Part shown: in pieces, positions 4,772 to 33,422 of the stretch
Layout of the letters: each line of letters starts with the position of its first letter
Position numbering within the stretch: position 1 is the first letter of the stretch
Source: Actinocorallia sp. API 0066
GTDB lineage: Bacteria > Actinomycetota > Actinomycetes > Streptosporangiales > Streptosporangiaceae
Assembly (NCBI RefSeq): GCF_020991275.1
Contig: NZ_JAJLQY010000002.1
Location: forward strand, 310,001 to 374,000
Length of the DNA stretch: 64,000 nucleotides
Direction: 5' to 3'
Notes under the pieces: generated by a model
Databases searched by the model: none
What the model saw: only the letters and a program-made list of their open reading frames with translations
Told to the model about the DNA's origin: nothing
Position numbers and translations under genes: made by a program

Positions 4772-7453
4772 TCAGTGGGCGGCGTCGAACCAGGTGCGGC
4801 CGGTGCCCATGGAGACGGCCAGGGGGGCGCGGAGGGTGTAGGCGCCGTCCATCTGGGTGCGGACCAGGGTGGAGAGGTCGGCCAGTTCGCCGGGGGCCAC
4901 CTCGAAGATGAGTTCGTCGTGGACCTGGAGGAGCATCCGGGAGCGGAGTGAGGAAGCGCGGAGCGCGGCGTCCACCCGGATCATGGCGACCTTGATGATG
5001 TCGGCGGCCGAGCCCTGGATCGGGGCGTTCAGGGCCATCCGCTCGCTCATCTCGCGGCGCTGCCGGTTGTCGGAGTTGAGGTCCGGCAGGTAGCGGCGGC
5101 GGCCCAGGATCGTCTCGGTGTAGCCGTCACTGCGGGCGTCGGAGACGACGGAGGCCAGGTAGTCGCGGACACCGCCGAACACCTCGAAGTACTCCTCCTT
5201 CAGGCCGCGCGCCTCGGACGGGCTGATCCGCAACTGCTGGGACAGGCCGAACTCCGACAGGCCGTAGGCCAGGCCGTAGTTCATCGCCTTGATCTTGCTG
5301 CGCAGCTCCGGCGTGACACTGCCGGGATCGACGGAGAACACCTTGGCGGCGGTGATCGTGTGGAAGTCCGCGCCGGACTCGAACGCCTCGATGAGCGCCT
5401 CGTCGCCCGACAGGTGCGCCATGATCCGCAGCTCGATCTGGCTGTAGTCCGCCGTCAGCAGGCACTCGTAGCCCGCGCCGACGGTGAACGCCTCGCGGAT
5501 CTGCCTGCCCTCGTCGGTACGGGTCGGGATGTTCTGGACGTTCGGGTCGGTGGACGAGAGCCGTCCCGTCGCCGCGACCGTCTGGTTGAACGTCGTGTGG
5601 ATGCGGCCCGTCTCGTCCGCCAGCGGGATCAGCGAATCCACGATCGACTTGAGCTTGGCGACCTCGCGCCAGCGCAGGATGCGCTCCAGCACCGGGTGCT
5701 CGCTCTTCTCCAGCAGCGTCGTGAGCGCCTCGGAGTCGGTCGTGTAGCCCGTCTTGGTGCGCTTGGTCTTGGGCAGGCCCAGCTCGTCGAAGAGGACCTG
5801 CTGGACCTGCTTGGGGCTGCCCAGGTTGAACTCGTGGCCGACCGCGTCGAACGCGCCCTGCTCGACCTCCTTGGCCTGCCCGCCCAGCGACGCCGACAGG
5901 TTCGCCAGATGGTCGTTGTCGATCGCGACGCCCGCCCGCTCCATGCCGGACAGGATCGGCACGAGCGGCAGCTCCAGCTCGGCCAGCAGCCGGGCCGCGC
6001 CGCGCCGCTCCAGCTCGCCGTCCAGCGCGTCCGCCAGATCGACCACGGCGCGGGCCCGGACGGCGAGCTCCTGCGCCGCGTCGTCCTCGTCGGAGCCGTC
6101 CAGGGTGAGCTGGCCGTTCTGCTCGGCCTCCTCGCGCAGCTCCCGGTGCAGGAAGCGGAGCACCTGCTCGCCGAGGTCGTAGGAGCGCTGGTCGGGGGCG
6201 ACGAGATAGGAGGCGAGCGCGGTGTCGCTGGTGACCCCGGCCAGGGTGAGGCCGCGCGCGGCGAACGCCAGGCCGGGGCCCTTGGCGTCGTGGATCGCCT
6301 TCGGCCTGTCGGCGCTGGCGAGCCAGGCCGCGAACGCCCGCTCGTCCTCGGGGAGGAGCACGGCCGGGTCGAAGTGCACGGCGGCGCCCTCGCCGTCGGC
6401 CAGCGCGACGGCCGTCAGCTCGCCGGTGCCGCGGCCCCAGCGGCCCGCCACCGCGACGCCCACGCGGCCTTCGCGGGCGGCCAGCCAGTCGCCCAGCGCG
6501 CCGGGCGCCAGCTCGGCCAGCTCGACGGTGAAGCCCTCGTCGGCCTCCACCACGTTCTCGGAGATCGTGTTGAACAGCCGCTCGCGCAGCTCGCCGCGGA
6601 ACTCCAGGGTGTCGAGCAGCGCCTGGATCTCGGCGCGCTCCCAGTCGCCGACGGTGAGCTCGGCCGGGCCGCAGTCCAGCTCGACGGAGGTGTCCAGCCG
6701 GTTGATCTGGGCGTTGCGGATGACCTCGCCCAGGTGCTCGCGCAGCGACGCGCCCGCCTTGCCCTTGATCTCGTCGACGCGGGCGATCAGGTTGTCCAGG
6801 CCGTCGTAGGCTTCCAGCCACTTGGCGGCCGTCTTCGGGCCGACGCCGGGCACGCCGGGCAGGTTGTCGCTCGTCTCCCCGACGAGCGCCGCCAGCTCCC
6901 GGTAGCGCGCGGGGGACACCCCGTACTTCGTGGTGACGGCCTCCGGATCCATCCGGGCCAGCACCGAGACGCCCTTCACCGGGTACAGGACGGTGGTGTT
7001 GTCGTCCACGAGCTGGAACGCGTCGCGGTCGCCGGTGACGATCAGGGTGCGCATGCCCTCGGCGGAGGCGCGCGTGGCCAGGGTGGCGATCAGGTCGTCC
7101 GCCTCAAAACCGGAGACCGAAAGGTGCCGGATACGCAGCGCGTCCAGCATCTCGTGGATCAGCTGGACCTGGCTGCGGAACTCGTCGGGCGTCTTGGCGC
7201 GGCCCGCCTTGTACTCCGTGTAGGTGGTGTGGCGGAACGTCGGCTCTGATCTGTCGAAGCACACCGCGACGTGGGTCGGCTTCTCGTCGCGCAGCACGTT
7301 CACGAGCATCGACGTGAAGCCGAACACCGCGTTGGTGTGCTGCCCCGTCGTCGTGGAGAAGTTCTCCACCGGCAGGGCGTAGAACGCCCGGTAGGCCAGG
7401 GAGTGCCCGTCGAGCAGGAGCAGGGTCTGAGGGGTCGGTTCCGCGTTAGCCAC
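4772..7453 (-). CDS. polA: DNA polymerase I
   Basis: An 893-residue polymerase for Okazaki fragment processing and repair. The N-terminal 5'-3' exonuclease begins LLLLDGHSLAYRAFYALP and continues through GFEADDLIATLA and the helix-hairpin-helix GVPGVGPKTAAKWL, about residues 1-300. The middle region (~300-480) corresponds to the proofreading domain. I cannot find its DEDD carboxylates, as expected for actinobacterial PolA, which usually lacks 3'-5' activity. The polymerase domain has motif A TADYSQIELRIMAHLSGD, the O-helix RSKIKAMNYGLAYG and motif C LLQVHDELIFEV. The start is GTG. It is divergent from the thioesterase gene with a 68-nt gap, an arrangement I associate with other actinobacteria. 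Confidence 0.97.
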   Translation of the reverse strand: MANAEPTPQTLLLLDGHSLAYRAFYALPVENFSTTTGQHTNAVFGFTSMLVNVLRDEKPTHVAVCFDRSEPTFRHTTYTEYKAGRAKTPDEFRSQVQLIHEMLDALRIRHLSVSGFEADDLIATLATRASAEGMRTLIVTGDRDAFQLVDDNTTVLYPVKGVSVLARMDPEAVTTKYGVSPARYRELAALVGETSDNLPGVPGVGPKTAAKWLEAYDGLDNLIARVDEIKGKAGASLREHLGEVIRNAQINRLDTSVELDCGPAELTVGDWERAEIQALLDTLEFRGELRERLFNTISENVVEADEGFTVELAELAPGALGDWLAAREGRVGVAVAGRWGRGTGELTAVALADGEGAAVHFDPAVLLPEDERAFAAWLASADRPKAIHDAKGPGLAFAARGLTLAGVTSDTALASYLVAPDQRSYDLGEQVLRFLHRELREEAEQNGQLTLDGSDEDDAAQELAVRARAVVDLADALDGELERRGAARLLAELELPLVPILSGMERAGVAIDNDHLANLSASLGGQAKEVEQGAFDAVGHEFNLGSPKQVQQVLFDELGLPKTKRTKTGYTTDSEALTTLLEKSEHPVLERILRWREVAKLKSIVDSLIPLADETGRIHTTFNQTVAATGRLSSTDPNVQNIPTRTDEGRQIREAFTVGAGYECLLTADYSQIELRIMAHLSGDEALIEAFESGADFHTITAAKVFSVDPGSVTPELRSKIKAMNYGLAYGLSEFGLSQQLRISPSEARGLKEEYFEVFGGVRDYLASVVSDARSDGYTETILGRRRYLPDLNSDNRQRREMSERMALNAPIQGSAADIIKVAMIRVDAALRASSLRSRMLLQVHDELIFEVAPGELADLSTLVRTQMDGAYTLRAPLAVSMGTGRTWFDAAH

Positions 7454-7521
7454 GGTCAGAGCCTAGTCTCGACCGGTGACAGTTTCCGGCACTGGACGGA
7501 ACCGATGGGCGGAGTTGACAC

Positions 7522-7929
7522 GTGAATTCTGACGAGATCCTGGCGCTGCTGCGGGAGACGGGCGGCGACCTCGGCCGGACGATGGGCATCGAGATCACCG
7601 AGGCGTCCCCGGACCGCGTCGTCGGCAAGATGCCGGTGAAGGGCAACACCCAGCCTTACGGGCTGCTGCACGGGGGCGCCTCCTGCGTCCTGGCCGAGAC
7701 GCTCGGCTCGGTCGGGTCGGCGCTGCACGCGGGCGAGGGCAGGATCGCCGTCGGCATCGAGATCAACGCGACCCACCACCGCTCGGCCACCGAGGGCTTC
7801 GTCACCGGCGTCGCCACCAAGGTCCACGGCGGCCGCAGCCTCGCCACCTTCGAGATCGTCATCACCGACGACAGGGACCGCCGCGTCTGCACCGCCCGCC
7901 TCTCCTGCATGCTGCGAGATAGCGCCTGA
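7522..7929 (+). CDS. PaaI-type hotdog-fold thioesterase
   Basis: A 135-residue acyl-CoA thioesterase-like protein, probably a cytoplasmic tetramer. The hotdog fold is indicated by the LLHGGASCVLAETLGS helix motif, where the PaaI-type catalytic residue normally lies after HGG, and by the strand GIEINATHHRSATEG. Length is typical. The substrate is unknown; PaaI-family enzymes hydrolyse aromatic or hydroxyphenylacetyl-CoA esters, and close relatives are listed as uncharacterised thioesterases. The start is GTG at 7522. It is divergent from polA. Confidence 0.88.
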   Translation: MNSDEILALLRETGGDLGRTMGIEITEASPDRVVGKMPVKGNTQPYGLLHGGASCVLAETLGSVGSALHAGEGRIAVGIEINATHHRSATEGFVTGVATKVHGGRSLATFEIVITDDRDRRVCTARLSCMLRDSA

Positions 7930-21372: not shown

Positions 21373-21775
21373 GCGCGCTCCTTGATCGGTTACCGCGACT
21401 TTAACCCAACGCCCCCACATCCGGTGCGCCGGAGAACGCGATCCACAGCCACCGCATGCAGCCACGAACGGCGGCCCCCACGACCCGCCCGACCCGCCCG
21501 CCCCACCCCGAACGCGGCGTCCGTGAACGGCGTGGGCGCGACTCCTCCGTGCGCCCTTACGAACGCCGCCTTGCTCTACTTTGTCGGTGAATATCGCTTT
21601 TGACGATGTAGGACCAGTGTGTTCGGTTGGTGTAAGTATCGTTCGTGCTGTTCGTCCGATTGGTCGCCGATTCCCCTTGGCTGGTTCCTTCTTTTGGTGG
21701 CGTGCTTGGCAAGACGCGGTTACCGTTGTCCTTGTTTGGCGTAAAACCGGGAAACGGAGAAGGGCGGTACGTGTC
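21373..21775. other. Divergent intergenic region, AT-richer
   Basis: About 400 bp separate the divergent gene at 21372 and the XRE regulator. From about 21575 on it is clearly AT-richer than the surroundings (TTTGTCGGTGAATATCGC, TTGTTTGGCGTAAAACC), as is common before XRE-DUF397 loci. It must hold both promoters, but I see no -35/-10 pair I would defend. The frame upstream of GTG 21776 is open to 21581 but has poor codon bias. Confidence 0.5.
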
Positions 21776-22588
21776 GTGTTCAACCTCAGGGAGTCACCCG
21801 ATCCGCGCGGCAATCTGTGGGACATGAGCGCCTTCTACCTGCGGTTCTTCCGGATGCACAACGGCCACTCCGGCGACACCGTCGCGAAGTGGCTCAACTG
21901 CTCGCGGGCCACGGTTTCCCGGATGGAAACCGGCGACGCGAAGCTTGACGAGCGCCACGCGGCGATCTTGGACGCGAAGTGGAAGCTGGCCACACTGTTC
22001 CAGGATCTCGTCTGGTACGCCCGTTTGGGGGGAGATCCGAACTGGGCGAAGAATTATGTCCAGTTTGAGCAGATCGCAACGGGTGTCTGGATGTATGAAG
22101 GGCAGGTCGTCCCACTGCTGCTCCAGACCGAGGACTACATGAGGGCGCTGGTCCTCCGAGGCGGAGCCCGCGACCCGGAGAAAACGTTCTCGGATCGGCG
22201 AAAGCGACAGGCGATCCTTGACGAAGGAGGCGCGAGCCCGTTCCTGTGGGTCCTCATCGCGGAGACGGTGCTCGGCCCGCACGTCGGTGGGCGCGAGGTG
22301 ATGCGCAAGCAACTCGCCCACCTCATCGAACTGTCCCATCGACCGAAGATCATTCTTCGCGTGGTCCCCAACACCGCTGGCGCGAACGAAGGTCTGGACG
22401 GCCCCTTCAAGATCATCGCCGGGCCCCGGGGCGACGTAGGGTTCATCGAGGCGAAGGTCGACGGCCGACTCGTCACCCAGGTCGCCGAGGTCGCCATGCT
22501 CAAGCACCAGTTCGACCTCATCGGCTCGGACGCGCTATCGGTAGACTCGTCCAGAAGACTGATCGGTGAGCTCATGGAGAAGATATGA
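21776..22588 (+). CDS. XRE-family regulator with DUF5753 C-terminal domain
   Basis: A ~270-residue DNA-binding protein. The N-terminal helix-turn-helix includes FRMHNGHSGDTVAKWLNCSRATVSRMETGD (about residues 24-55). The rest is the DUF5753 domain with VWMYEGQVVPLLLQTEDYMRAL, the RKRQAIL segment and KIILRVVPNTAGANEGLDGPFKI. Proteins of this kind pair with small DUF397 proteins in antibiotic and sporulation control (the WhiJ-type families). GTG 21776 is preferred because GAGAAGG lies upstream and codon use becomes typical there. The stop overlaps the first DUF397 start (ATGA). Confidence 0.9.
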   Translation: MFNLRESPDPRGNLWDMSAFYLRFFRMHNGHSGDTVAKWLNCSRATVSRMETGDAKLDERHAAILDAKWKLATLFQDLVWYARLGGDPNWAKNYVQFEQIATGVWMYEGQVVPLLLQTEDYMRALVLRGGARDPEKTFSDRRKRQAILDEGGASPFLWVLIAETVLGPHVGGREVMRKQLAHLIELSHRPKIILRVVPNTAGANEGLDGPFKIIAGPRGDVGFIEAKVDGRLVTQVAEVAMLKHQFDLIGSDALSVDSSRRLIGELMEKI

Positions 22589-22761
22589 CTATCTGGCGCA
22601 AGAGCAGCTACTCCACACAGGGCGTGAGTGAGCACTGCCTGGAGTTGGCCGTGTTCCGCAACCGCGTCGGCGTCCGGGACTCCAAGAACCCCGAGCTCGG
22701 CCACCAGACGCTCACCCCCGAGACGTTCGGCGCGCTGGTCCACGCCCTCAAGATGTCCTAG
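22585..22761 (+). CDS. DUF397 domain protein, copy 1
   Basis: A 58-residue protein: WRKSSYSTQGVSEHCLELA, then VGVRDSKNPELGHQTLTPE and FGALVHALK, the canonical DUF397 layout (WRKSSxS, CxE, VxVRDSK, F..). It is translationally coupled to the XRE-DUF5753 gene (ATGA overlap). In other actinobacteria such pairs act as regulator and small antagonist or antitoxin-like partner. A hairpin terminator follows 30 nt after the stop. It is too short for many gene callers, but coding is clear from conservation with copy 2. Confidence 0.93.
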   Translation: MTIWRKSSYSTQGVSEHCLELAVFRNRVGVRDSKNPELGHQTLTPETFGALVHALKMS

Positions 22762-22790
22762 CCCCACAATCGCCCTTACCGAGCACGCGA

Positions 22791-22814
22791 GGCCCCAGCC
22801 TTCTGGGGCCTTTT
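22791..22814 (+). terminator. Intrinsic terminator after DUF397 copy 1
   Basis: GGCCCCAG, a CCTT loop and CTGGGGCC form a perfect 8-bp stem followed directly by TTTT. This is a textbook rho-independent terminator, so the second copy probably depends on read-through or its own promoter. Confidence 0.85.
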
Positions 22815-22847
22815 GCGAAGGTCGACGGCCGAGCTGATGGAGAAGAT

Positions 22848-23024
22848 ATGACTATCTGGCGCAAGAGCAGCTACTCCACCGAGGGCGTGAGTGAGCACTG
22901 CCTGGAGTTGGCCGTGTTCCGCAACCGCGTCGGCGTCCGGGACTCCAAGAACCCCGAGCTCGGCCACCAGACGCTCGCCCCCGAGACGTTCGGCGCGCTG
23001 ATCCACGCCCTCAAGGCGTCCTAG
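22848..23024 (+). CDS. DUF397 domain protein, copy 2 (tandem duplicate)
   Basis: A 58-residue near-copy of the 22585 protein: only Q12E, a T-to-A change (LTPET to LAPET), V-to-I and M-to-A (KMS to KAS) differ. Of six nucleotide differences, five change amino acids. The same GGAGAAGATATGA start context is kept from the duplicated end of the XRE gene, but there is no complete regulator in front of this copy. It has its own terminator. It may be an alternative partner of the same XRE protein. Confidence 0.9.
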   Translation: MTIWRKSSYSTEGVSEHCLELAVFRNRVGVRDSKNPELGHQTLAPETFGALIHALKAS

Positions 23025-23053
23025 CCCCCATATCGCCCCCACCGAGCACGCGA

Positions 23054-23078
23054 GGCCCCAGCTTTCTGGGGCCTTTTT
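23054..23078 (+). terminator. Intrinsic terminator after DUF397 copy 2
   Basis: GGCCCCAG pairs with CTGGGGCC around a 4-nt loop (CTTT) and is followed by TTTTT, one T more than copy 1. It is the duplicated version of the terminator at 22791. Confidence 0.87.
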
Positions 23079-23218: not shown

Positions 23219-24505
23219 GTGCAGCAGGAGCGGGATCACGCGGCGTATTTGGCGATGGAGTTGGCGTTGCGGGTGGGGGAGTTGATGTTGGCGGGTGGGG
23301 AGTCGGCGGAAAGTGTGGAGCGGGCTGTTATGGGGTTTGGGCGGGCATTTGGGATGCCGGTGAGGTCTGAGGTTAATGTGACGCTTTCGGCGATTTCGGT
23401 GTCGTATCTGCCGGGGCATGGGAAGCCGCCGGTGACGGGGGAGCGGACGATTCGGCGGCGGGTGGCGGACTTTACGAGGCTGGTTGAGGTGGATCGGCTG
23501 ACCGCTGAGGCCGTCGCGGGGAGGTTGACGATCGAGGAGGCGTCCGAGCGGCTGCGGAAGATCATCGCGGATCCGGGGCCGTACCCGTGGTGGGCGCACG
23601 CGCCCGCGTTGGCGGTGCTGGCCGGGGCGGGCGCGGTGCTCGTCGGGGGCGGGGCGCTGTCGGCGCTCGCCGCGTTCGCCGCCACCCTGCTGGGCGACCG
23701 GGCCGCCGCGCGGCTCGGCTCCCGAGGCGTCTCGGAGTTCCTCCAGACGGCCGTCGCCGCCTGCATCGCCGCGACGCTCGCCGCCCTGCTCGTCTGGCTC
23801 GACGTGGACGTCGCGGCCGGGGCCGTCATCATCGGCGTGGTGATCGCGCTGATCCCCGGCCGCGCGCTCGTCGCGAGCATGCAGGACGGCATCGCGGGCG
23901 ACTACGTGACGGGCTCGATCCGGCTCATCGAGGCGCTGTTCATCATCGCGGCGATCCTCAGCGGCGTCGGGTTCACCATCTACGTCGCGGCCCGGCTCGG
24001 CGTGCCCATCTCGCTGGAGCACCTGCCGCTGGCGCGGCTCGCCGAACGCAGCTCGATCCTCGCCGCCGGGGTGATCTCGGCGGCGTTCGCGGTGCACGTC
24101 ATCGCGCCGCCCGCCTGGGTCGCGCCCGCCGCGCTCGGCGGCATGGTGAGCTGGACGATCTTCACCTGGCTGCTGCGCGGCGACGTCGCGGCGGCCGCGG
24201 CGGCCCTGGTCGCGACGCTCGTGGTAGGGCTGTTCATGACGGCGCTGGCCCGCTACCGGGGCGTCCCGCCGGTCGTGGCGGTGGTGCCGTGCGTCGCGCC
24301 CCTCATGCCCGGCACGCTCATGTACCGGGGCCTCCTGGAGGTCACCACCGACCACACCGAGACGGGCCTCGTCACCCTCGTGGAGGCGGTCTCGACGGCG
24401 CTGGCGCTCGGCGCGGGCGTCATCCTCGGCGGCGAGTTCCTCCGCGTCATCCGGCCCGTCCGCGTCACCGCCGCCAAGGTCATCGCCCGGCGACGGCGAC
24501 GTTAG
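23219..24505 (+). CDS. ThrE-family threonine/serine exporter-like membrane protein
   Basis: A ~428-residue protein with the fused ThrE layout: an N-terminal soluble DUF1212 part (LALRVGELMLAGGESAESVERAV and VTLSAISVSYLPG) followed by about ten helices, including the ThrP-like second half around VPPVVAVVPCVAPLMPGTLMYRGL. The family includes the Corynebacterium threonine exporter ThrE. GTG 23219 is chosen because GGGGAGG sits 6 nt upstream; the frame stays open to 23099. Codons are G/T-ending at the start and C-ending at the end. The stop codon overlaps that of the converging helicase gene. Confidence 0.9.
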   Translation: MQQERDHAAYLAMELALRVGELMLAGGESAESVERAVMGFGRAFGMPVRSEVNVTLSAISVSYLPGHGKPPVTGERTIRRRVADFTRLVEVDRLTAEAVAGRLTIEEASERLRKIIADPGPYPWWAHAPALAVLAGAGAVLVGGGALSALAAFAATLLGDRAAARLGSRGVSEFLQTAVAACIAATLAALLVWLDVDVAAGAVIIGVVIALIPGRALVASMQDGIAGDYVTGSIRLIEALFIIAAILSGVGFTIYVAARLGVPISLEHLPLARLAERSSILAAGVISAAFAVHVIAPPAWVAPAALGGMVSWTIFTWLLRGDVAAAAAALVATLVVGLFMTALARYRGVPPVVAVVPCVAPLMPGTLMYRGLLEVTTDHTETGLVTLVEAVSTALALGAGVILGGEFLRVIRPVRVTAAKVIARRRRR

Positions 24506-25815
24506 GCCGTCACCTTGTAGTCGTCCAGGTGAGCGAGGACGGACTGGTTGGCCTCCCAGCCGTCCGGGAACTTGATCGGGAGCCCGAGGTGGACGGGCCC
24601 GGTCGAGGGGTGGGCGTCCAGGAGGTCGGGGATCCCGGCGCGGGCGACGACGACGCAGGCGTGCCGGTGCCGTGAGGTGAGCACGCACAGGCGGCCCGCC
24701 TGGAGGTGGAACTCGGTGGCGTCCCGGCGGCCCGACAGGGGGTGCAGCACGACCGTCACGTCGTACTCGCGGCCCTGGAGCCGGTTGGCGGTGTCCACGG
24801 TGATCCCGGTGCCGGCGAGCCGTGCCTTGACCGCCGCGACCTGGTCGCGGTGGGCCGCGCCGACGGCGATCCGCTCGGCCGTGACGGCCTTCTCGGACCC
24901 GTCGGCGGTGGCGACGGCCCCGCGCTGGAGGATCCGGGTCGCCAGTGCGGCCGTCGCGGTGACGGCCTCCGAGTCCGTCCGGATGGTGTGCCTTCGGGGG
25001 AGTTCGTACAGGCTCCAGCCGGAAGCTGCGGCGATGTCCAGCGCGTCGTCGAACGCGCCCATGCCCGCCGCCTCGAACCGCAGCAGCCGGTCCCCGTGCC
25101 CGGTGCCCGCCCGGAACCCGGTGTACGGGTAGAACGCGTCGGAGACGACGGGCGCCGCCGAAGCCGGAAGCCGCCACGACACCGGAAGCCGATGCACCGG
25201 AAGGTCCGGATTGTGCGCGAGCAGCACCGAGACGGCCGACTGCGTGGGGTCCCACGACTGCCCGGCCCAGCGGCCGGAGTCCACCGTGGAGAACGGGTCC
25301 AACTGCCCCGGATCGCCCACAAAAAGGGCGCGCTCGAACCGGGCGGCGATCCGCAGCAGGGCGTCCGAGCGCATCTGGTACGCCTCGTCCACGATCGCCC
25401 ACGACCAGGTGCCGTCGGCGACCGTCGCCCACTTCGCCGCGGTCGCGATCACCAGCGGCACCCCGGCCAGCGCGTCGATCTTCGGGCTGACCAGCACGTT
25501 CGGCCGCTTGACGCGCTCGGTGGGCTGGTAGTCGCCCGCCGAGAGCCGTCCGATGACCAGCTCGGACGTCTTCGCGCACAGCCGCTCGATCAGGTCGTCC
25601 ACCTGCTCGTTGGTCTGCGCGACGATCATCAGCCGCTCGCCCGCGTCCGTCAGGTGCAGCGCCGCCTTCACCACGAGCGTGGACTTGCCCGCGCCGGGCG
25701 GCGAGTCCACCACGACGCCGCGATGGCTCCCGTCGGCGAGGTCGGCGAGCACCCCCGCGACTGCCGCGTCGGCGAGCGCGCCAGCCGTCCCCAGGTCAGG
25801 CGTCTTCGCGCTCAT
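24502..25815 (-). CDS. SF1 (Upf1/Dna2-like) helicase, last gene of a four-gene operon
   Basis: A 437-residue ATPase with SF1B motifs: Walker A PPGAGKST at residues 39-46, motif Ia VAQTNEQVDDLIERL, motif II AIVDEAYQMRS, motif III FVGDPGQLDPF, motif IV VSWRLP, motif V TANRLQGREYDVTVV and motif VI LTSRHRHACVVV, which keeps the arginine finger. No separate 1B barrel domain is obvious between motifs Ia and II, unlike Dna2 or Upf1. It overlaps the gene at 25796 by 20 bp, so it is coupled to the 511-residue protein and a Cas4-like nuclease. I infer that it is the motor of a multi-subunit helicase-nuclease acting in DNA repair or defence. Confidence 0.88.
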   Translation of the reverse strand: MSAKTPDLGTAGALADAAVAGVLADLADGSHRGVVVDSPPGAGKSTLVVKAALHLTDAGERLMIVAQTNEQVDDLIERLCAKTSELVIGRLSAGDYQPTERVKRPNVLVSPKIDALAGVPLVIATAAKWATVADGTWSWAIVDEAYQMRSDALLRIAARFERALFVGDPGQLDPFSTVDSGRWAGQSWDPTQSAVSVLLAHNPDLPVHRLPVSWRLPASAAPVVSDAFYPYTGFRAGTGHGDRLLRFEAAGMGAFDDALDIAAASGWSLYELPRRHTIRTDSEAVTATAALATRILQRGAVATADGSEKAVTAERIAVGAAHRDQVAAVKARLAGTGITVDTANRLQGREYDVTVVLHPLSGRRDATEFHLQAGRLCVLTSRHRHACVVVARAGIPDLLDAHPSTGPVHLGLPIKFPDGWEANQSVLAHLDDYKVTA

Positions 25816-27331
25816 GGGTCATCTCCTCGGCTGCCGTCTCGTTCGGCTCGGTCCGGTCCTCGGGCGGGCCGCCGTGCGTCCAGGGGGTCTCCTCCGGCTC
25901 GGGCAGCGACCCGCCGGGCCGGAACTCGTCGGCGAAGGTGGTGAAGCACAGCCGCTGGCCCTGTTCGGGGATCGAGCCGGGCAGTGGCTTGCGCGCGTTG
26001 CCCATGCCGTTCTCGATCCGCAGCGTGACGGTGTCGCCGTCCACCTCCAGCACCGCGGCCTTCTGGGTGCGGGACGCGTTGTGCACGGTCATGCCGGGCT
26101 CGATCCGGAGCCTGTCGGGGGTGATGAGCTGGACGAGCGGCCTGCGCAACCCCTTCTCGTTGACGTTGTCCGGGTCGGTCCAGACGACCTCGCCCCTGAA
26201 CGCCTCGCCCGTGAGCCGGTGTTCGGCCATGACGAGGGGGTCGTCCAGCGCGCGCTGGACGGTGTACCGGGAGGCCGCGCCCTCCAGGGACGCCAGCCTG
26301 CGCGCCGCCGCCACGGCCCCGTCATGCCGGGCCTGAGGCAGGCCCTCGTCCAACGACTCCTCGAAGTTGGTGAAGGACTGCCGGTCGCCTTCGAACCGCG
26401 CTGGCACGTGCGCCGCCTCGGGCAGCTCCCGCAGCAGCCCGACCGCGTGCCACATGAGCCGCCACGTCGGCTCCATCTGCTCGGTGAGCCGGGCCCGCAA
26501 CAGCTCCTCGGCGTGCTCGCGGGCCGGGCCCTCGGGCGCGGTGTCGTAGACGGCGATCGTGGGCGCGAGGACCTCGTTGTCGAACGTCGGGTCGGTGGTG
26601 GGCCCGGCGGGCGGCACGGTCAGCGGGTCCTCGGCGAGCGTCGCCATGTCCTGACCCGTCCGGTACCGCTCGGGCGACGGCGCGCCCATCAGCCCGGCGA
26701 GCCGTGGCCCGGGGTCGATCCAGCCGAGCAGGGCGGCGAGGTTGCCGTCCTCCATCGAGCTCTGCCCGGACGCCCAGTGCTGGGCGAGCAGCTCCGTCAT
26801 CGCGCACAGGGCGGACGCGCCCGGGTAGTCCGACCTGTCGGCGAACCAGGTGAGCCAGCGGCCGAGCACCGGCACCTCGGGCGCGACCGGCCACTCGCCC
26901 TCGGTCTGCCGGAACCGGGTGGCCCGGCCCGCCAGCCGCAGGAACTCGATCGCGGGCCGGTTCGGCACGAGGATCTGCGGCGCGTCCAGGTACCGCTCGT
27001 AGGTCTCGCCCTTGCGCTCGCCGCGCTTGATCTCGATCGTCTCGGCGTTCTCGGTGGCCGCCGCGACCTCGCCGAGCACGATCCGGCCGAGTTCGGCGAA
27101 GAACGCGAACCGCAGGTCGCGGTTGCGCGGCTGCGGCACGAGCAGGACGCGCGCCTTGTCGGGGTGGTTGCCGACCATCGCGGCGAGCGGGGCGGCGGCC
27201 TCGCCCGCCAGCCGGAGCGGGATGAGGACGAGCGGGTCCTGGGCGAGCCGGACGTGCCGGACGCTCGCGAGCGGCACCGCGCGGCCGTCCCGCAGCGCCT
27301 TCATCCGCGCCACCGCGCCGAGCATGCTCAT
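25796..27331 (-). CDS. Unknown 511-residue subunit of the helicase-nuclease operon
   Basis: No family is recognised. The N-terminal ~100 residues look alpha/beta (VPLASVRHVRLAQDPLVLIPL, then KARVLLVPQPRNRDLRFAFFAELG). The middle is helical with conserved-looking Trp and Arg. Residues ~410-480 form a beta-rich segment (DRLRIEPGMTVHNASRTQKA, VLEVDGDTVTLRIENG, QRLCFTTF) that resembles the small barrel placed before the motor in Upf1/Dna2-type helicases, which the adjacent helicase seems to lack. The tail is acidic. Overlaps: 20 bp with the helicase gene and 4 bp with the nuclease gene. I infer an accessory or DNA-binding subunit. Confidence 0.78.
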   Translation of the reverse strand: MSMLGAVARMKALRDGRAVPLASVRHVRLAQDPLVLIPLRLAGEAAAPLAAMVGNHPDKARVLLVPQPRNRDLRFAFFAELGRIVLGEVAAATENAETIEIKRGERKGETYERYLDAPQILVPNRPAIEFLRLAGRATRFRQTEGEWPVAPEVPVLGRWLTWFADRSDYPGASALCAMTELLAQHWASGQSSMEDGNLAALLGWIDPGPRLAGLMGAPSPERYRTGQDMATLAEDPLTVPPAGPTTDPTFDNEVLAPTIAVYDTAPEGPAREHAEELLRARLTEQMEPTWRLMWHAVGLLRELPEAAHVPARFEGDRQSFTNFEESLDEGLPQARHDGAVAAARRLASLEGAASRYTVQRALDDPLVMAEHRLTGEAFRGEVVWTDPDNVNEKGLRRPLVQLITPDRLRIEPGMTVHNASRTQKAAVLEVDGDTVTLRIENGMGNARKPLPGSIPEQGQRLCFTTFADEFRPGGSLPEPEETPWTHGGPPEDRTEPNETAAEEMTHEREDA

Positions 27332-28437
27332 CCGACGTGCTCCCGCTGCTCAAGCTGCTCCAGGAGGAGGCGGTGCGCGTCGCGCAGCTCCTCGGCGACC
27401 TCTTCGAGCGCCGGGTCGTGCGGCGGCTCGCCCTCGGCGATGCGCAGCGCCCGGGCCAGGTCGGTGATGCCGCCGAGCTGGTCGCCGAGCTGGCGGCCCA
27501 GCAGGTCGGTGGACGCGCACGCGCGCGCCTCGGCCCGGCAGTACAGGGACAGGTCGCAGTGCGCGCGGCAGCCCGGCATGTAGCGGGCCGGGACGCGCGG
27601 CAGGGACTCGGCGAGGCCGTCGCCGGGCTCCAGCGTGAGGTCCTCGGGCAGCTCGGCGAGCAGCTCCTCGATCCGCTGCATGCGCTGGAGCTGGCGGCGG
27701 ATGACCCCGAGCTGCGGCCGGACGTCCAGCAGCGTCGCGGTCGGCCGGTTGGTGAAGTTCTCCGGGCAGACCAGGACGACCCGGTCGGCGACCAGCTCCT
27801 CGTCGTAGCCCAGTTCCGTCATCATCAGCCGTAGCGCGAGCACGTACACGGCCGCCTGCCTTGCCGCCGCCGCGACCTGCTCGGGGTTGGCCCGCCCGTC
27901 CACCACCGGGAACGACTTGATCTCGACGACGTGGAAGGCGCCCTGCGAGCGGAACGCGATGACGTCGGGCTCCAGGTAGACCGGGTGCCCGCCGACCTCC
28001 ACCCGCAGCAGCGGATGGTCGAACAGCGTGCCCTCACCCTCGACGGCCCGCTTGAGTAGCTGCTTGGTGCGGGCGTAGCGGACCTCGCGGCTGACGTTGC
28101 CGCCGACCTCCTCCAGGTCGGCGTACTCCGACTCGGCCACGGGCAGCCCCAGCTTGTCGCGGAGCAGGCCGTACAGGGCGGCGCACCCGTCGGCCTTGAC
28201 CGTCGCCTCGAAGGCGTTGCCGCGGGTGATCGCGAACTGGGACTGGCCGAAGCGCGGCGGATGCCCGAGGAACCTGGCGATCTCGGCCTTGTCGGCGCCC
28301 GCGGCGTCCAGGAGGGCGCGCCGCCTGCATCCGGGGTTGGTGGTGAGCGCGGCGATGCTGCGCGCGTCGTGGTTGCGGGGCGGGGCGTCGCCGCGCATCC
28401 TGTCCAGCCGTGCCTCCACGGCCTCCAGCGCGCTCAT
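27328..28437 (-). CDS. Cas4/RecB-like Fe-S PD-(D/E)XK nuclease
   Basis: A 369-residue nuclease. Seen: RGNAFEATV near residue 73 (Cas4/RecB motif I), D158 in YLEPDVIAF, E172-x-K174 in HVVEIKSF and Q194-x3-Y198 in RQAAVYVLAL, together the full RecB-family active site. C37 plus C290-x3-C294-x5-C300 fit the four-cysteine iron-sulphur layout of Cas4 and AddB. ATG 28437 is chosen because it overlaps the upstream gene by 4 bp and starts just before C37; the frame is open further upstream. There are no CRISPR repeats nearby, so a role outside CRISPR is likely. With the SF1 helicase it resembles a Dna2 enzyme split into subunits. Confidence 0.87.
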   Translation of the reverse strand: MSALEAVEARLDRMRGDAPPRNHDARSIAALTTNPGCRRRALLDAAGADKAEIARFLGHPPRFGQSQFAITRGNAFEATVKADGCAALYGLLRDKLGLPVAESEYADLEEVGGNVSREVRYARTKQLLKRAVEGEGTLFDHPLLRVEVGGHPVYLEPDVIAFRSQGAFHVVEIKSFPVVDGRANPEQVAAAARQAAVYVLALRLMMTELGYDEELVADRVVLVCPENFTNRPTATLLDVRPQLGVIRRQLQRMQRIEELLAELPEDLTLEPGDGLAESLPRVPARYMPGCRAHCDLSLYCRAEARACASTDLLGRQLGDQLGGITDLARALRIAEGEPPHDPALEEVAEELRDAHRLLLEQLEQREHVG

Positions 28438-29249
28438 GAGCCGAGTCCCAGCGCGCGGGTGTTCTGGAGCCTGGCCCCGAACAGCTGGGCCACCGGGTCG
28501 AGCTGCCGGGCGGCCCGCTCGGCGGCCTCCGCCCGGTGTTCGGCGTCGGCGTCGCGGTGCACGTCCAACTCGGCGTGCGCGGCGGCCCTGACGGCCGAGA
28601 GGTCGACGGTGCCCTGCGCGCCCGTCGCGCGCGGGATGCCCGCCGCGAAGCGCCACAGCAGCCGTCGCGCGGCGGGGCCCGGCTCGGCGTCGAGCCGCTC
28701 CAGCTGCTCGGTGACCCGGACGGCGGCCGTGAGGAAGTCCACGCGGGGGCTCAGCGGGCCGACCATGCGGGTGGCGGCGGGCCAGGTGCTCACCGCGAGC
28801 AGCCCGCGCGCCGGAGCCAGCAGATCGGACGTGAGCGCCGCGCAGAGGTAGAACGGCCTGGTGTGCGGGCCCGAGCGGAACGAGCGCTCCTCGTCGCGGC
28901 GCAGGCTGGTGAGCTGGCCGGAGCCCAGCGCGCCGGAGAAGAACGCCTCGTGCACGCCGAGGATCAGCTTGGGCGCGGCCGGGACGCCGAGCAGGGTCAG
29001 CGCGTGGTGCACCTGGTCGCGCACCGGGATCATCCGCTGCGGCGCGGGCGCGGCCGGGGCCATCACGGCGGTGTCCCAGGCGTGCTCCAGGCGGCGCAGC
29101 TCGGCGCGCAGGACCCGGGCGCCCGCCCGGTCGCCGCGGCCGACGGCGCGGCGCACCTCGGCGCGCAGCGCGGCGATGCGCTGTTCCAGCAGGTCGGCGG
29201 ACTCGGGCTCGGCTGCCTCGGCCGGGGGAAGTCCGGGGGAAGGCGACAT
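28434..29249 (-). CDS. Unknown 271-residue first gene of the helicase-nuclease operon
   Basis: The N-terminal ~60 residues include a charged coiled coil (LLEQRIAALRAEVRRAVGR, then RAGARVLRAELRRLEHAWD). The rest is a mostly helical domain containing QVHHALTLLGVPAAPKLILGVHEAFF, TSLRRDEERSFRSG and RPFYLCAALT, and it ends with another helix. No known motif is recognised. The order on the minus strand is this gene, nuclease, 511-residue protein, helicase, all overlapping, so it is presumably a structural or recognition subunit. There is no Shine-Dalgarno sequence before the ATG at 29249; a TACGCT at 29257-29262 would allow a leaderless start. Confidence 0.75.
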   Translation of the reverse strand: MSPSPGLPPAEAAEPESADLLEQRIAALRAEVRRAVGRGDRAGARVLRAELRRLEHAWDTAVMAPAAPAPQRMIPVRDQVHHALTLLGVPAAPKLILGVHEAFFSGALGSGQLTSLRRDEERSFRSGPHTRPFYLCAALTSDLLAPARGLLAVSTWPAATRMVGPLSPRVDFLTAAVRVTEQLERLDAEPGPAARRLLWRFAAGIPRATGAQGTVDLSAVRAAAHAELDVHRDADAEHRAEAAERAARQLDPVAQLFGARLQNTRALGLGS

Positions 29250-29406: not shown

Positions 29407-31011
29407 GTGACCCACCTGAACCGCCGTGACGCGCTGAAGCTCGGCGGCGCGGGCGCGGCCCTGGCCGTCCTGGCCCCGGCCGCCGCGCACGCCGACCCGA
29501 CCCCGTACTTCGCGCACGGAGTCGCCTCAGGCGACCCCCTGCCCAACGGCGTCATCCTGTGGACCAGGGTGACGCCCGTGCCCGAGGCCGTCCCCGGAAG
29601 CGGGACCGGACCGCAGGCCGACGTCTCCTGGCAGCTCTCGACAGACCCGTCCTTCAGCTCCGTGACGGCCTCCGGCACCGTCACCACCGGGCCCGACCGC
29701 GACCACACGGTCAAGGTGGACGTCGGCGGGCTGACCCCTGGCACGGGCTACTACTACCGCTTCGCTTACGCCGGTACCTACTCGCCCACAGGCCGGACCC
29801 GGACCGCGCCCGCGACGGACGCCTCCGTGTCGTCCCTCAAGTTCGGCGTCGTGTCGTGCTCCAACTGGGAGGCGGGCTGGTTCTCCTCCTACCGGCACCT
29901 GGCCGCCCGCGACGACGTCTTCGGCGTCATCCACCTGGGCGACTACATCTACGAGTACGGCACGGGCAGCTACGCGGCGGGCGGCACCGTGCCGCGCAAG
30001 ACCGCGCCCGAGCACGAGATCGTCACGCTCGCCGACTACCGGATCCGGCACGCGTCCTACAAGACCGACCCCGACCTCCAGGCCGCCCACGCGAGGCATC
30101 CGTGGCTCATCGTGTGGGACGACCACGAGATCGCGAACGACGCGTGGGCGGACGGCGCGGAGAACCACACGCCGGAGACTGAAGGCCCCTACGCGGCGCG
30201 CAAGGCGGCCTCGCTCCAGGCTTACCAGGAGTGGATGCCCGTAAGGTTCTCGCCGGAAGGCACCCTGTACAGGTCGCTGCGCTTCGGCACGCTGGCCGAG
30301 ATCGTCCTCCTGGACCTGCGCTCCTACCGCTCCCAGCAGGCGGGCGGCCTCGCCGTGGACGACCCGTCCCGGACCATCACGGGCGCGGCCCAGATGTCCT
30401 GGCTCAAGGACACCCTGGCGGCGTCCACGACGCGCTGGCGGCTCGTCGGGACGTCGGTGATGATCAGCCCGCTCGTCCTCGGCGCGCTCTCCGCGCAGGC
30501 GCTCGGCCCGCTCGCCAAGCTGCTCGGCATCCCGGCGAACGGCCTCACCCTCAACCCCGACCAGTGGGACGGGTACACCGCCGACCGGGCCGAGTTGTAC
30601 GCCGCGCTCCAGGCGCGCGGCACGGGCGACACGGTGTTCCTGACCGGCGACATCCACACGAGCTGGGCTAACGAGATCCCGCTGAAGCCCGGCACCTACC
30701 CGGTGAGCAAGTCGGTCGCGACGGAGTTCGTCGTCCCGTCCGTCACGAGCGACAACATCGACGACATCCTGGGCACCGCGCCCCGGACCGCCTCGCTCGC
30801 CATCGAATCGGCCATCGCCGTGACGAACCGGCACGTCCGCTGGACCAACCTGGACGACCACGGCTACGGCGTCGTCGAGGTGACGCCCGCCCGGACCCGG
30901 ATGGACTGGCACTTCCTCACCAACCGCCTCAACCGCAACTCGACCGAACGCAAGGCCGTCTCGTACACGACCGACCACGGCACCGCGAAGCTCAAGCGCA
31001 CCTTCGGCTGA
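29407..31011 (+). CDS. PhoD-like alkaline phosphatase/phosphodiesterase, Tat-exported
   Basis: A 534-residue secreted metallophosphatase. The N-terminus carries a twin-arginine signal (NRRDALKLGGAGAALAVLAP) cleaved near AHADP. A PhoD_N beta domain with the FAHGVASGDPLPNGVILWTRV motif follows, then the metallophosphatase domain with VVSCSNWEAG, VIHLGDYIYEYG, WLIVWDDHEIANDAWADGA and LTGDIHTSW, which supply the metal ligands. PhoD enzymes release phosphate from phosphodiesters and teichoic acid or phospholipid substrates outside the cell. The start is GTG. A hairpin terminator follows. Confidence 0.94.
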   Translation: MTHLNRRDALKLGGAGAALAVLAPAAAHADPTPYFAHGVASGDPLPNGVILWTRVTPVPEAVPGSGTGPQADVSWQLSTDPSFSSVTASGTVTTGPDRDHTVKVDVGGLTPGTGYYYRFAYAGTYSPTGRTRTAPATDASVSSLKFGVVSCSNWEAGWFSSYRHLAARDDVFGVIHLGDYIYEYGTGSYAAGGTVPRKTAPEHEIVTLADYRIRHASYKTDPDLQAAHARHPWLIVWDDHEIANDAWADGAENHTPETEGPYAARKAASLQAYQEWMPVRFSPEGTLYRSLRFGTLAEIVLLDLRSYRSQQAGGLAVDDPSRTITGAAQMSWLKDTLAASTTRWRLVGTSVMISPLVLGALSAQALGPLAKLLGIPANGLTLNPDQWDGYTADRAELYAALQARGTGDTVFLTGDIHTSWANEIPLKPGTYPVSKSVATEFVVPSVTSDNIDDILGTAPRTASLAIESAIAVTNRHVRWTNLDDHGYGVVEVTPARTRMDWHFLTNRLNRNSTERKAVSYTTDHGTAKLKRTFG

Positions 31012-31162: not shown

Positions 31163-31223
31163 CGCTCCAGTGGACGGCCGTCCCACCCCCATCCGATCGG
31201 CCTTCCTGAGGAGGCATCCCCGT

Positions 31224-33422
31224 ATGCACGCAAGAAAACGCGGACTCCGCTGGCGCGAGATCGGCGCCGCCGTGGCGCTGGCCGCGGGCGCGGTGGTCCC
31301 CGTCGCGGTGTTCGGCGGCGGCGCGCCCGCCAACGCGGCGGTCACCCTGAACGACAGCGAGGTGACGGCGAACCTGTGGGAGTGGAACTGGGACTCCGTC
31401 GCCGCCGCCTGCACCAACCACCTCGGCCCGGCCGGGTACGGCGCGGTCCAGGTCGCGCCGCCGCAGGAGTCCGTCAAACTGCCCAGCAGCAGCGACGGAG
31501 CGCACCCCTGGTGGGAGGTGTACCAGCCCGTCTCCTACAAGCTGGAGAGCAGGCTCGGCACCCGCGCCGAGTTCGCCGCGATGGTCCAGGCGTGCCACAA
31601 CGCCGGCGTGCGCGTCTACATCGACGCCGTCGTCAACCACATGGCGGGCACCAACAACTCCCACACGACCGGCTACGACGGCACCAGCTTCAGCCCTACG
31701 GGCTACAGCTACCCGGCCGTGCCCTACGGCTACAACGACTTCCACCACCCCGGAAGCGGCTGCACCACCTCCGGTGGGATCAACGACTGGAACAACGAGG
31801 AGCAGGTCACCGGGTGTGAGCTGCTCAGCCTGGCCGACCTGCGCACCGGCGACGAGAGCGTGCGCAACAAGATCGCCGCCTATCTCAACGACCTCGTCGG
31901 CCTCGGGGTAGACGGCTTCCGGGTGGACGCCGTCAAGCACATCAAGAAGAGCGACTTCGCCGCGATCCTCGCCAAGGTGAACAACACGACCGCGGAGAAC
32001 AAGCGGCCGTACGTCGCCCAGGAGATCTTCGACGGGGCCAGCAACCCCGCCCTCCAGGCCGCCGCCTTCATCGGCAACGGCGACGTCCTCGACTTCGCCT
32101 ACGCCAAGGGCATCCGCTCGGCCTTCCAGGGCTCGATCTCCAACCTCGCGAACGTGCCGAACTGGAACAAGGACGCGCCGAGCGCCAACGTCTTCGCCAT
32201 GGTCACCAACCACGACCTGGAGCGCGACGGCGTTGTCCTGTCCTACAAGAACGGCACGGACTACGTGCTGGCGAACTACTTCGTCCTCGCCTACCCGCAC
32301 GGGAAGCCGTCGGTCTACGACAGCTTCACCTACTCGGTGAACGGCCAGTCGCCGCCGCACAACGGCAACGGGTACGTCAACGACGCGGTGTGCGGCTCGG
32401 GATGGAACTGCCTCAGCCAGACGACGGGCGTCAAGGGCATGGTCGGCTGGGCGAACACCGCCAAGTCGGTCGGCTCCGTCTCGAACTTCACCGTGACCAA
32501 CGCCAACGTCATCGCGTTCAGCCGCGGCGACCGTGGCTGGATCGGCATCAACGACTCCGGCAGCGGCTCCACCGCGACCTACACGACCGGCCTCACGGAC
32601 GGCACCTACTGCGACGTCATCACCGGCGGCGTCAACGGCACGCAGTGCGCCGGCACCCCGGTGACGGTCTCGGGTGGGCAGGCGACCGTCACTATCCCCG
32701 CGAACAACGCGGTGGCCATCCACGCGAACGCCAAGCTCGGCGGCGACCCGACACCGACGCCGACCCCCACCACCCCGACCCCCACCCCGACCGAGCCGAC
32801 CCCGACCCCGACCGACCCGACGAACCCCGCGACCGTCACCGACACCTTCAACGTCTACACCCAGACCGTTCCGGGTGAGGACGTCTACGTGGTCGGCAAC
32901 GTCGCGGCCCTCGGCTCGTGGAACACCGGCGCGGCCGTCAAGCTCTCCGCCGCCGGATACCCGGTGTGGACGGGCTCGGTAGCACTCCCGGCCAACACCG
33001 CGATCGAGTACAAGTTCATCAAGAAGACCGCGGGCGGCACCGTCACCTGGGAGAGCAACCCCAACCGCACCTACACCACGGGGACCAGCGGCACCACGCT
33101 GAGCAACAGCTGGAACCTCGCCAACGCGAACGCCACGGCGCTCACGTTCAACGTCAACGCGACGACGTCCTTCGGCCAGAACGTGTACGTCGTGGGCAAC
33201 ATCGCCGCTCTCGGCGCGTGGAACCCCGCGCACGCGATCCCGCTTTCGGCGGCCTCCTACCCCGTCTGGAGCAGGCTCACGATCGTGCCGAAGAGCACGT
33301 CCATCGAGTACAAGTACATCCGCAAGGACGCCAACGGGAACGTGACGTGGGAGGGCGGCGGGAACCGCTCCTTCAGCACGGGCTCCGGCTCGTCCCACAC
33401 CGTCAGCAACACCTGGCAGTGA
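31224..33422 (+). CDS. Secreted GH13 alpha-amylase with two C-terminal CBM20 domains
   Basis: A 732-residue extracellular starch-degrading enzyme. The signal peptide ends near ANAAVTLND (~residue 39). GH13 motifs: D134-AVVNH139, GFRVD235AVKH (nucleophile), AQE267IFD (acid/base) and VTNH330-D331. An Aamy_C beta domain runs to ~residue 505, then a Thr-Pro linker of (TP)n units. Two tandem CBM20 starch-binding domains follow, each with VYVVGNVAALGSWN or VYVVGNIAALGAWN and the IEYKFIKK or IEYKYIRK strand. One CBM20 is the common form, so the tandem pair is notable. ATG 31224 has GAGGAGG at a good distance. Confidence 0.96.
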   Translation: MHARKRGLRWREIGAAVALAAGAVVPVAVFGGGAPANAAVTLNDSEVTANLWEWNWDSVAAACTNHLGPAGYGAVQVAPPQESVKLPSSSDGAHPWWEVYQPVSYKLESRLGTRAEFAAMVQACHNAGVRVYIDAVVNHMAGTNNSHTTGYDGTSFSPTGYSYPAVPYGYNDFHHPGSGCTTSGGINDWNNEEQVTGCELLSLADLRTGDESVRNKIAAYLNDLVGLGVDGFRVDAVKHIKKSDFAAILAKVNNTTAENKRPYVAQEIFDGASNPALQAAAFIGNGDVLDFAYAKGIRSAFQGSISNLANVPNWNKDAPSANVFAMVTNHDLERDGVVLSYKNGTDYVLANYFVLAYPHGKPSVYDSFTYSVNGQSPPHNGNGYVNDAVCGSGWNCLSQTTGVKGMVGWANTAKSVGSVSNFTVTNANVIAFSRGDRGWIGINDSGSGSTATYTTGLTDGTYCDVITGGVNGTQCAGTPVTVSGGQATVTIPANNAVAIHANAKLGGDPTPTPTPTTPTPTPTEPTPTPTDPTNPATVTDTFNVYTQTVPGEDVYVVGNVAALGSWNTGAAVKLSAAGYPVWTGSVALPANTAIEYKFIKKTAGGTVTWESNPNRTYTTGTSGTTLSNSWNLANANATALTFNVNATTSFGQNVYVVGNIAALGAWNPAHAIPLSAASYPVWSRLTIVPKSTSIEYKYIRKDANGNVTWEGGGNRSFSTGSGSSHTVSNTWQ

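Follow-up and report, generated by a model that had tools for sequence, protein, structure and literature searches.

The stretch of DNA examined here (the window) comprises 64,000 nucleotides of Actinocorallia sp. API 0066 (contig NZ_JAJLQY010000002.1, positions 310,001 to 374,000), whose genome of 7.0 Mb is held in 44 contigs, and it carries on the minus strand four overlapping genes, referred to below as A, B, C and D in the order of the operon. An initial annotation had described these genes from the letters of the sequence as an operon encoding a split Dna2-like helicase-nuclease, which it did not recognise as a named system. All four open reading frames (ORFs) were confirmed: A at 28434-29249 (271 amino acids), B at 27328-28437 (369), C at 25796-27331 (511) and D at 24502-25815 (437), neighbouring frames overlapping by 4, 4 and 20 bases as judged from the starts and stops in the sequence. 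The ORF list places the start of B at a GTG at 28656; the ATG at 28437, which overlaps the stop of A, agrees with the family. A, B and C have no meaningful family in Pfam, NCBIfam or PADLOC. The four-gene observation is real and better supported than first stated.

Conservation and co-inheritance

Scanning genome contigs with C identified 74 loci, most of them in Actinomadura and Micromonosporaceae. All four genes are present in 65 of the 74, the other nine lying at contig ends or being fragments; the two genes without a recognised family are therefore regular neighbours of the nuclease-helicase pair, the opposite of the outcome that the initial annotation had named as refuting its proposal. 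The same strand and the order A-B-C-D are kept in 64 loci, with all gaps below 350 bases in 62; the exceptions are L027 and L029, in which 2.4 kb are inserted between C and D, and L066, whose D has the opposite orientation and lies about 5 kb off. Within the family to which the window belongs, C was found in 82 of 150 genomes, in 73 of the 130 good ones and in 32 of 68 genera. The closest named relative of C encountered is that of Actinocorallia populi (73% identity), and the D proteins of the two organisms are sisters.

Co-occurrence was also surveyed in 296 sampled genomes of the phylum, with E-value thresholds of 1e-3 for B and 1e-20 for D. B and D are found in an identical set of 13 genomes; C is present in 12 of them, and the thirteenth (G165) has a diverged C-like gene between B and D (E 1.6e-17). 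Strong matches to A occur in only four of the 13, and two weak ones in distant genomes (E 1e-4 and 5e-4) were taken as chance. The order B-C-D persists at 22-25% identity in two further families of the phylum. Since B and D co-occur with C while A is present in four of the 13 genomes only, B-C-D is regarded as the core unit and A as an accessory; of the two additional subunits by which the initial annotation saw nuclease and helicase joined, C is thus part of the core and A is the optional one. In the genus g3, eight genomes carry B-C-D at one site without A and two of the eight also have a second copy with A; no g3 genome stands among the listed non-matching genomes, a list from which 264 are missing. 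The gene upstream of B in g3 was considered as a diverged A and rejected, being membrane-protein-like and without similarity to A. A, B and C had no match in a phage collection, in which D was not queried, and C had none among viral contigs.

That the four genes form an ordinary operon of unrelated functions is scarcely credible in the light of their co-inheritance and of an order kept over distant families, and the co-occurrence data already disfavour it; what speaks for it is that interaction between the subunits is something we infer.

The putative nuclease and helicase

B carries the residues of an iron-sulphur (Fe-S) nuclease of the RecB/Cas4/Dna2 kind, as the initial annotation had noted from four cysteines and a D-ExK-QxxxY site. 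In an alignment of 86 rows, the C-terminal cysteines Cys290-x3-Cys294-x5-Cys300 (27538-27570, minus strand) are kept throughout, as is Tyr198; Asp158 and Gln194 are kept in 85 rows, and Glu172, Lys174 and the N-terminal Cys37 (28327-28329, minus strand; two gaps) in 84. The nuclease site proper, D158, E172-x-K174 and Q194-xxx-Y198, spans 27844-27966 of the minus strand. The ten signature residues are near-invariant even in rows of 25% identity, with the exception of His141. The ordered signature is present in 67 of the 68 B genes of at least 250 amino acids, the sole miss being L093, and in none of 862 other called genes of the same loci or of 20,000 shuffles of B. According to the available part of PMC7430649, a signature of this type marks the iron-staple DNA nucleases Cas4, AddB and Dna2. 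By its signature, B is thus a putative iron-staple nuclease of this kind. At E 1, B had no match in Pfam, NCBIfam or PADLOC, and so none to a Cas4 profile. Matches of B to designed repeat proteins in the PDB were discounted, as they rest on about 33 residues.

D was described at the outset as a superfamily 1 (SF1) helicase of the Upf1/Dna2 type, an assignment that holds. Of 13 motif positions checked over 84 rows, 11 are invariant, one is Ser or Thr and one deviates in a single row. In Pfam, D exceeds the cut-off for both AAA_11 and AAA_30, falls slightly short of it for AAA_12 and reaches only E 0.065 for UvrD; among solved chains, its profile matches SMUBP-2 (E 6e-10), DNA2 (5ean, E 1e-6) and UPF1 (E 7.5e-6). 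Motif I lies at residues 38-46, and D is therefore a minimal motor of bare 1A and 2A domains with no space ahead for a barrel or a stalk.

Genes C and A

C represents a new family. In its predicted structure, which has a mean predicted local distance difference test score (pLDDT) of 70.6, an N-terminal part of the alpha/beta type is followed by long helices and by a C-terminal beta-barrel at residues 377-464 (25940-26203, minus strand). The best Foldseek matches are the N-terminal barrels of F1-ATPase alpha and beta subunits at E about 3e-3, with none below 1e-3, and a comparison of the C structure with a viral library gave no useful match. In Dna2, as described in the available part of PMC4716839, the order of domains is nuclease, beta-barrel on a two-helix stalk and helicase. 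C is proposed as the counterpart of the Dna2 barrel because D has no room for one and C has one predicted; it is plausible, going by the model, that C provides the barrel and stalk missing from D and stands in for those of Dna2 and Upf1.

The first gene, A, had been called a coiled-coil protein. This applies only to a predicted helical hairpin at about residues 18-63; the remainder is a predicted, conserved all-helical domain (mean pLDDT 76.8), for which Foldseek returned nothing under E 0.2.

Comparison with known systems

Eukaryotic Dna2 is a repair enzyme. Like the set described here, it combines an iron-staple nuclease with an Upf1-like SF1 helicase, the nuclease standing ahead of the helicase; the iron-staple residues are found in B (as a signature, not as a fold) and the Upf1-like helicase in D. 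Unlike Dna2, which is one chain, the present set has three, with B and D on separate chains and C carrying additional N-terminal and helical parts. B and D fit the analogy well, and for C it is plausible. The bacterial protein Bad, a single-chain DNA2-like protein of Geobacillus acting 5' to 3', is likewise an Fe-S nuclease with an SF1 helicase, and is reported from Firmicutes and Proteobacteria, its authors also referring to a second class, that of mycobacteria and Rhodococcus; it differs in being a single chain, and the available part of that paper mentions no C or A subunit (PMC7430649).

AddAB, RecBCD and AdnAB are multi-subunit helicase-nucleases with a RecB-type nuclease (Fe-S in AddB). 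Their motors are UvrD-like, of the SF1A type, whereas D is Upf1-like. Pairs of Cas4 and a helicase resemble the set in their Fe-S RecB-type nuclease but involve other helicase families: in the available part of a Cas4 survey, Cas4-like genes adjoin or are fused to UvrD or COG1205 helicases, Upf1-like ones are not mentioned, and the main text has no occurrence of 'actinobacteri-' or Streptomyces (PMC5704561). Linkage to cas1, as expected of Cas4, was not seen beside the set of the window (cas2 not being sought); the genome has its Cas1-family matches on contigs C3 and C4, and the window is part of C12. The initial annotation had seen no CRISPR nearby, and at 14000-40000 of the window no family of repeats reaches three copies; the remark does not extend to the family as a whole, two relatives having Cas3g directly after D.

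PADLOC 2.0.0 has no model that covers A, B or C, and for D only partial helicase matches. The best of these is MkoA of the Mokosh system (E 8e-12), over a best stretch of about 50 residues. Mokosh (MkoA/B) has a kinase and a PLD nuclease, which are without counterpart in A, B and C, and neither that nuclease nor a full MkoA helicase was found here. The view that the set has no name still stands in the libraries and the literature searched, where no description of it was found, subscription papers and preprints being mostly outside the coverage.

Fixed sites and moved copies

Grouping of the loci by shared neighbours gave 45 loci at an Actinomadura-type site, 7 at a Dactylosporangium site and 8 at a g3 site. 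The remaining, moved copies were compared with these by scanning one to three genes per locus (one in L029), picked for size or proximity without knowledge of what they were. Near the moved copies, 23 of 40 scanned genes have a PADLOC match of E 1e-20 or lower, which in 18 cases is to a clear system, as against none of 10 large genes from eight loci at the three fixed sites; the chance of obtaining 0/10 is 0.0008 given 23/40 and 0.006 given 18/40, figures which treat related loci as independent although they are not. Counted by locus, a clear defence system accompanies 13 of 26 moved copies and none of the eight fixed-site loci (0.011, with the same lack of independence); the 13/26 is a rough figure, as it contains the related pairs L051/L069, L044/L073 and L105/L108 and counts L105 and L108 by annotation. 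The count omits L011 and L036 (short Actinomadura contigs), L074 (a fragment), L106 and L107 (relatives of C and D only, see below), L103 (neighbour scanned by Pfam alone) and the window itself, and the matches to C3a206 (L049), C3a187 (L092), mad3 (L054, L069) and a partial type IIG system (L098) were not accepted as clear defence.

The systems concerned are diverse: BREX BrxC (L027), PglW-PglX (L039), type IV restriction (L044, L073), JetA (L051), Cas3g (L055), type I restriction-modification (L056), Cas3g-Cas8g (L068), HmaA (L069), HmaA-HmaB (L093), Wadjet by annotation (L105, L108) and a type III methylase (L145). In eight loci a defence operon follows D directly on the same strand, at gaps of 73-278 bases, beginning with HmaA (L069 and L093, with L051 added by clustering only), Cas3g (L055, L068), PglW (L039) or Wadjet (L105, L108). 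In L027, C and D are separated by a GmrSD_N gene, and in L029 by a member of the same cluster. Divergent genes upstream of A encode SbcCD, which is Mre11-Rad50-like, in L098 and, by annotation, in L108; in L027, L029, L051, L054, L056 and L069 they belong to one cluster, with an SMC-like member in L029. This ATPase gene is accompanied by a small partner of about 125-160 amino acids in L029 (5125-8147), L027, L054 and L069, and stands without it in L051 and L056. In L103, a distant B-C-D set is directly followed by a gene (6062-7753, minus strand) for an RNase_H_2 protein with a weak PDDEXK_1 match.

These contexts bear on the possibility that the set is a complex devoted solely to chromosomal DNA repair, as an additional end-resection enzyme of the RecBCD kind, whose defence neighbours only reflect the gathering of moved genes in islands. 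The three fixed-site groups, each forming one supported clade in a tree of 44 D rows, would suit such an enzyme, as would the repair function of Dna2, the absence of PADLOC matches at the fixed sites and the neighbours scanned at the Actinomadura-type and g3 sites, which are ordinary or without a Pfam name. So would the surroundings of the window, which shares six neighbour clusters with its nearest relative L001 and has upstream of the set two ordinary genes, for alkaline phosphatase D (29407-31011) and alpha-amylase (31170-33422). We nevertheless hold an exclusive repair role to be rather unlikely, as unrelated defence operons directly follow the moved copies on the same strand in the eight loci, a GmrSD_N gene or its relative is lodged within the set in two others, and the genome already has four other PD-(D/E)XK matches over the cut-off. 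AdnAB is not claimed among the latter: two of the frames concerned, of 1054 and 1112 amino acids, are separated by 11 kb and face in opposite directions.

A related plasmid operon

A protein of about 395 amino acids that precedes a D-like helicase, and whose family is present in 44 plasmid records, was considered as a B protein and rejected, as it is a homologue of C (C'). Its operon runs MoxR ATPase, DUF2201/VWA protein, small protein, C' and the helicase D' (L106, 4055-9137; also L107 and L167-L173, nine loci being examined and the VWA gene not listed in L170), and its hosts are plasmids of Rhodococcus, Mycobacterium, Mycolicibacterium, Xylanimonas and Cellulosimicrobium, with Promicromonosporaceae among them. 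Comparison of C and C' profiles gave E-values of 2.9e-10, 5e-7 and 9.8e-7, and 0.0025 when only two rows were used; column shuffles reached 0.019 at best in 30 trials, and a reversed profile 0.64. D and D' are linked at E 2e-71. The two operons are thus alike in having homologous C and D in the same order and differ in that the plasmid operon has a MoxR ATPase and a VWA protein instead of B and A. From these homologies it follows that C and D have long been paired and can change their partners, and that they need not serve a nuclease, as C' and D' live without one. A RAMP CRISPR-associated gene is present a few kb upstream of the C'-D' operon in L106 and L170.

The pairing of C' and D' with MoxR and VWA genes and no nuclease, together with the matches of D to UPF1 and SMUBP-2 besides DNA2, would also be compatible with an Upf1-like helicase that remodels RNA or ribonucleoproteins with exchangeable effectors, B among them, and targets phage RNA or R-loops. 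Such a role is improbable, since SbcCD and the restriction neighbours act on DNA and the signature of B is, in the available part of PMC7430649, that of the DNA nucleases Cas4, AddB and Dna2.

Proposed function

Gene content, motifs, co-inheritance, contexts and the homology of C and C' are matters of observation; complex formation, polarity, substrate and role are what we infer from them. The explanation preferred here, to which we assign a probability of roughly 0.6, is that B, C and D process DNA ends as a single machine, a Dna2-like helicase-nuclease distributed over three chains, which is resident in some lineages and also serves as a helper in defence. D would pull along single-stranded DNA, probably 5' to 3', the barrel of C would dock on D while C bridges to B, and B would cut the strand fed to it by the motor; A, the optional helical subunit, may have a part in loading or regulation. 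At the fixed sites in Actinomadura, Dactylosporangium, g3 and probably Actinocorallia, the most likely task would be DNA-end resection or repair. The moved copies often head or adjoin diverse defence operons and SbcC/SMC-like ATPase genes; there the machine would assist its partner by degrading or resecting the DNA that the latter has cut or stalled.

Several observations weigh against the single end-processing machine. The profile of B reaches no solved Cas4, Dna2 or AddB chain even at E 10, for which reason its assignment as a nuclease rests on the signature, and the B of L093 (11020-12135, minus strand), beside HmaAB, is without the catalytic Glu and Lys while retaining the Fe-S cysteines. 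The model of C is only middling at its pLDDT of 70.6, and no solved Dna2 or Upf1 barrel is among the best 50 of its 1274 Foldseek matches; the signal between C and C' is mainly N-terminal, the barrels alone being weakly related (E 0.008), and C' and D' occur beside MoxR/VWA genes without any B. In genome G204, D lies about 36 kb from B and C. Lastly, the other 13 of the 26 moved loci, L001 included, gave no clear defence gene.

A bolder version of the helper role, in which B-C-D with or without A is an undescribed, partner-agnostic immunity helper, is put forward tentatively, as a possibility with odds below even. Here a three-chain Dna2 would head diverse defence operons (Wadjet, Hma, Pgl and type I-G CRISPR) and finish off the DNA that these stall or cut, while the C-D motor would be separately wired to the plasmid MoxR/VWA machine.

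The copy in the window

In the D tree, the window and L001 group with the Actinomadura rows (98/95), and the copy of the window is therefore probably a resident, maintenance-type copy of which relatives have entered defence islands; the six neighbour clusters common to the window and L001 indicate that the site is old in this genus. The second copies of g3 lie on long branches of the same tree. A defence role is likely for the moved copies and unproven for that of the window. The window also contains, at 22568-23077, a pair of 247-base direct repeats that are 95% alike and carry small ORFs of one cluster; they come after a regulator-like gene (21587-22585), which falls into the same cluster as an HTH_31/DUF5753 gene of L010.

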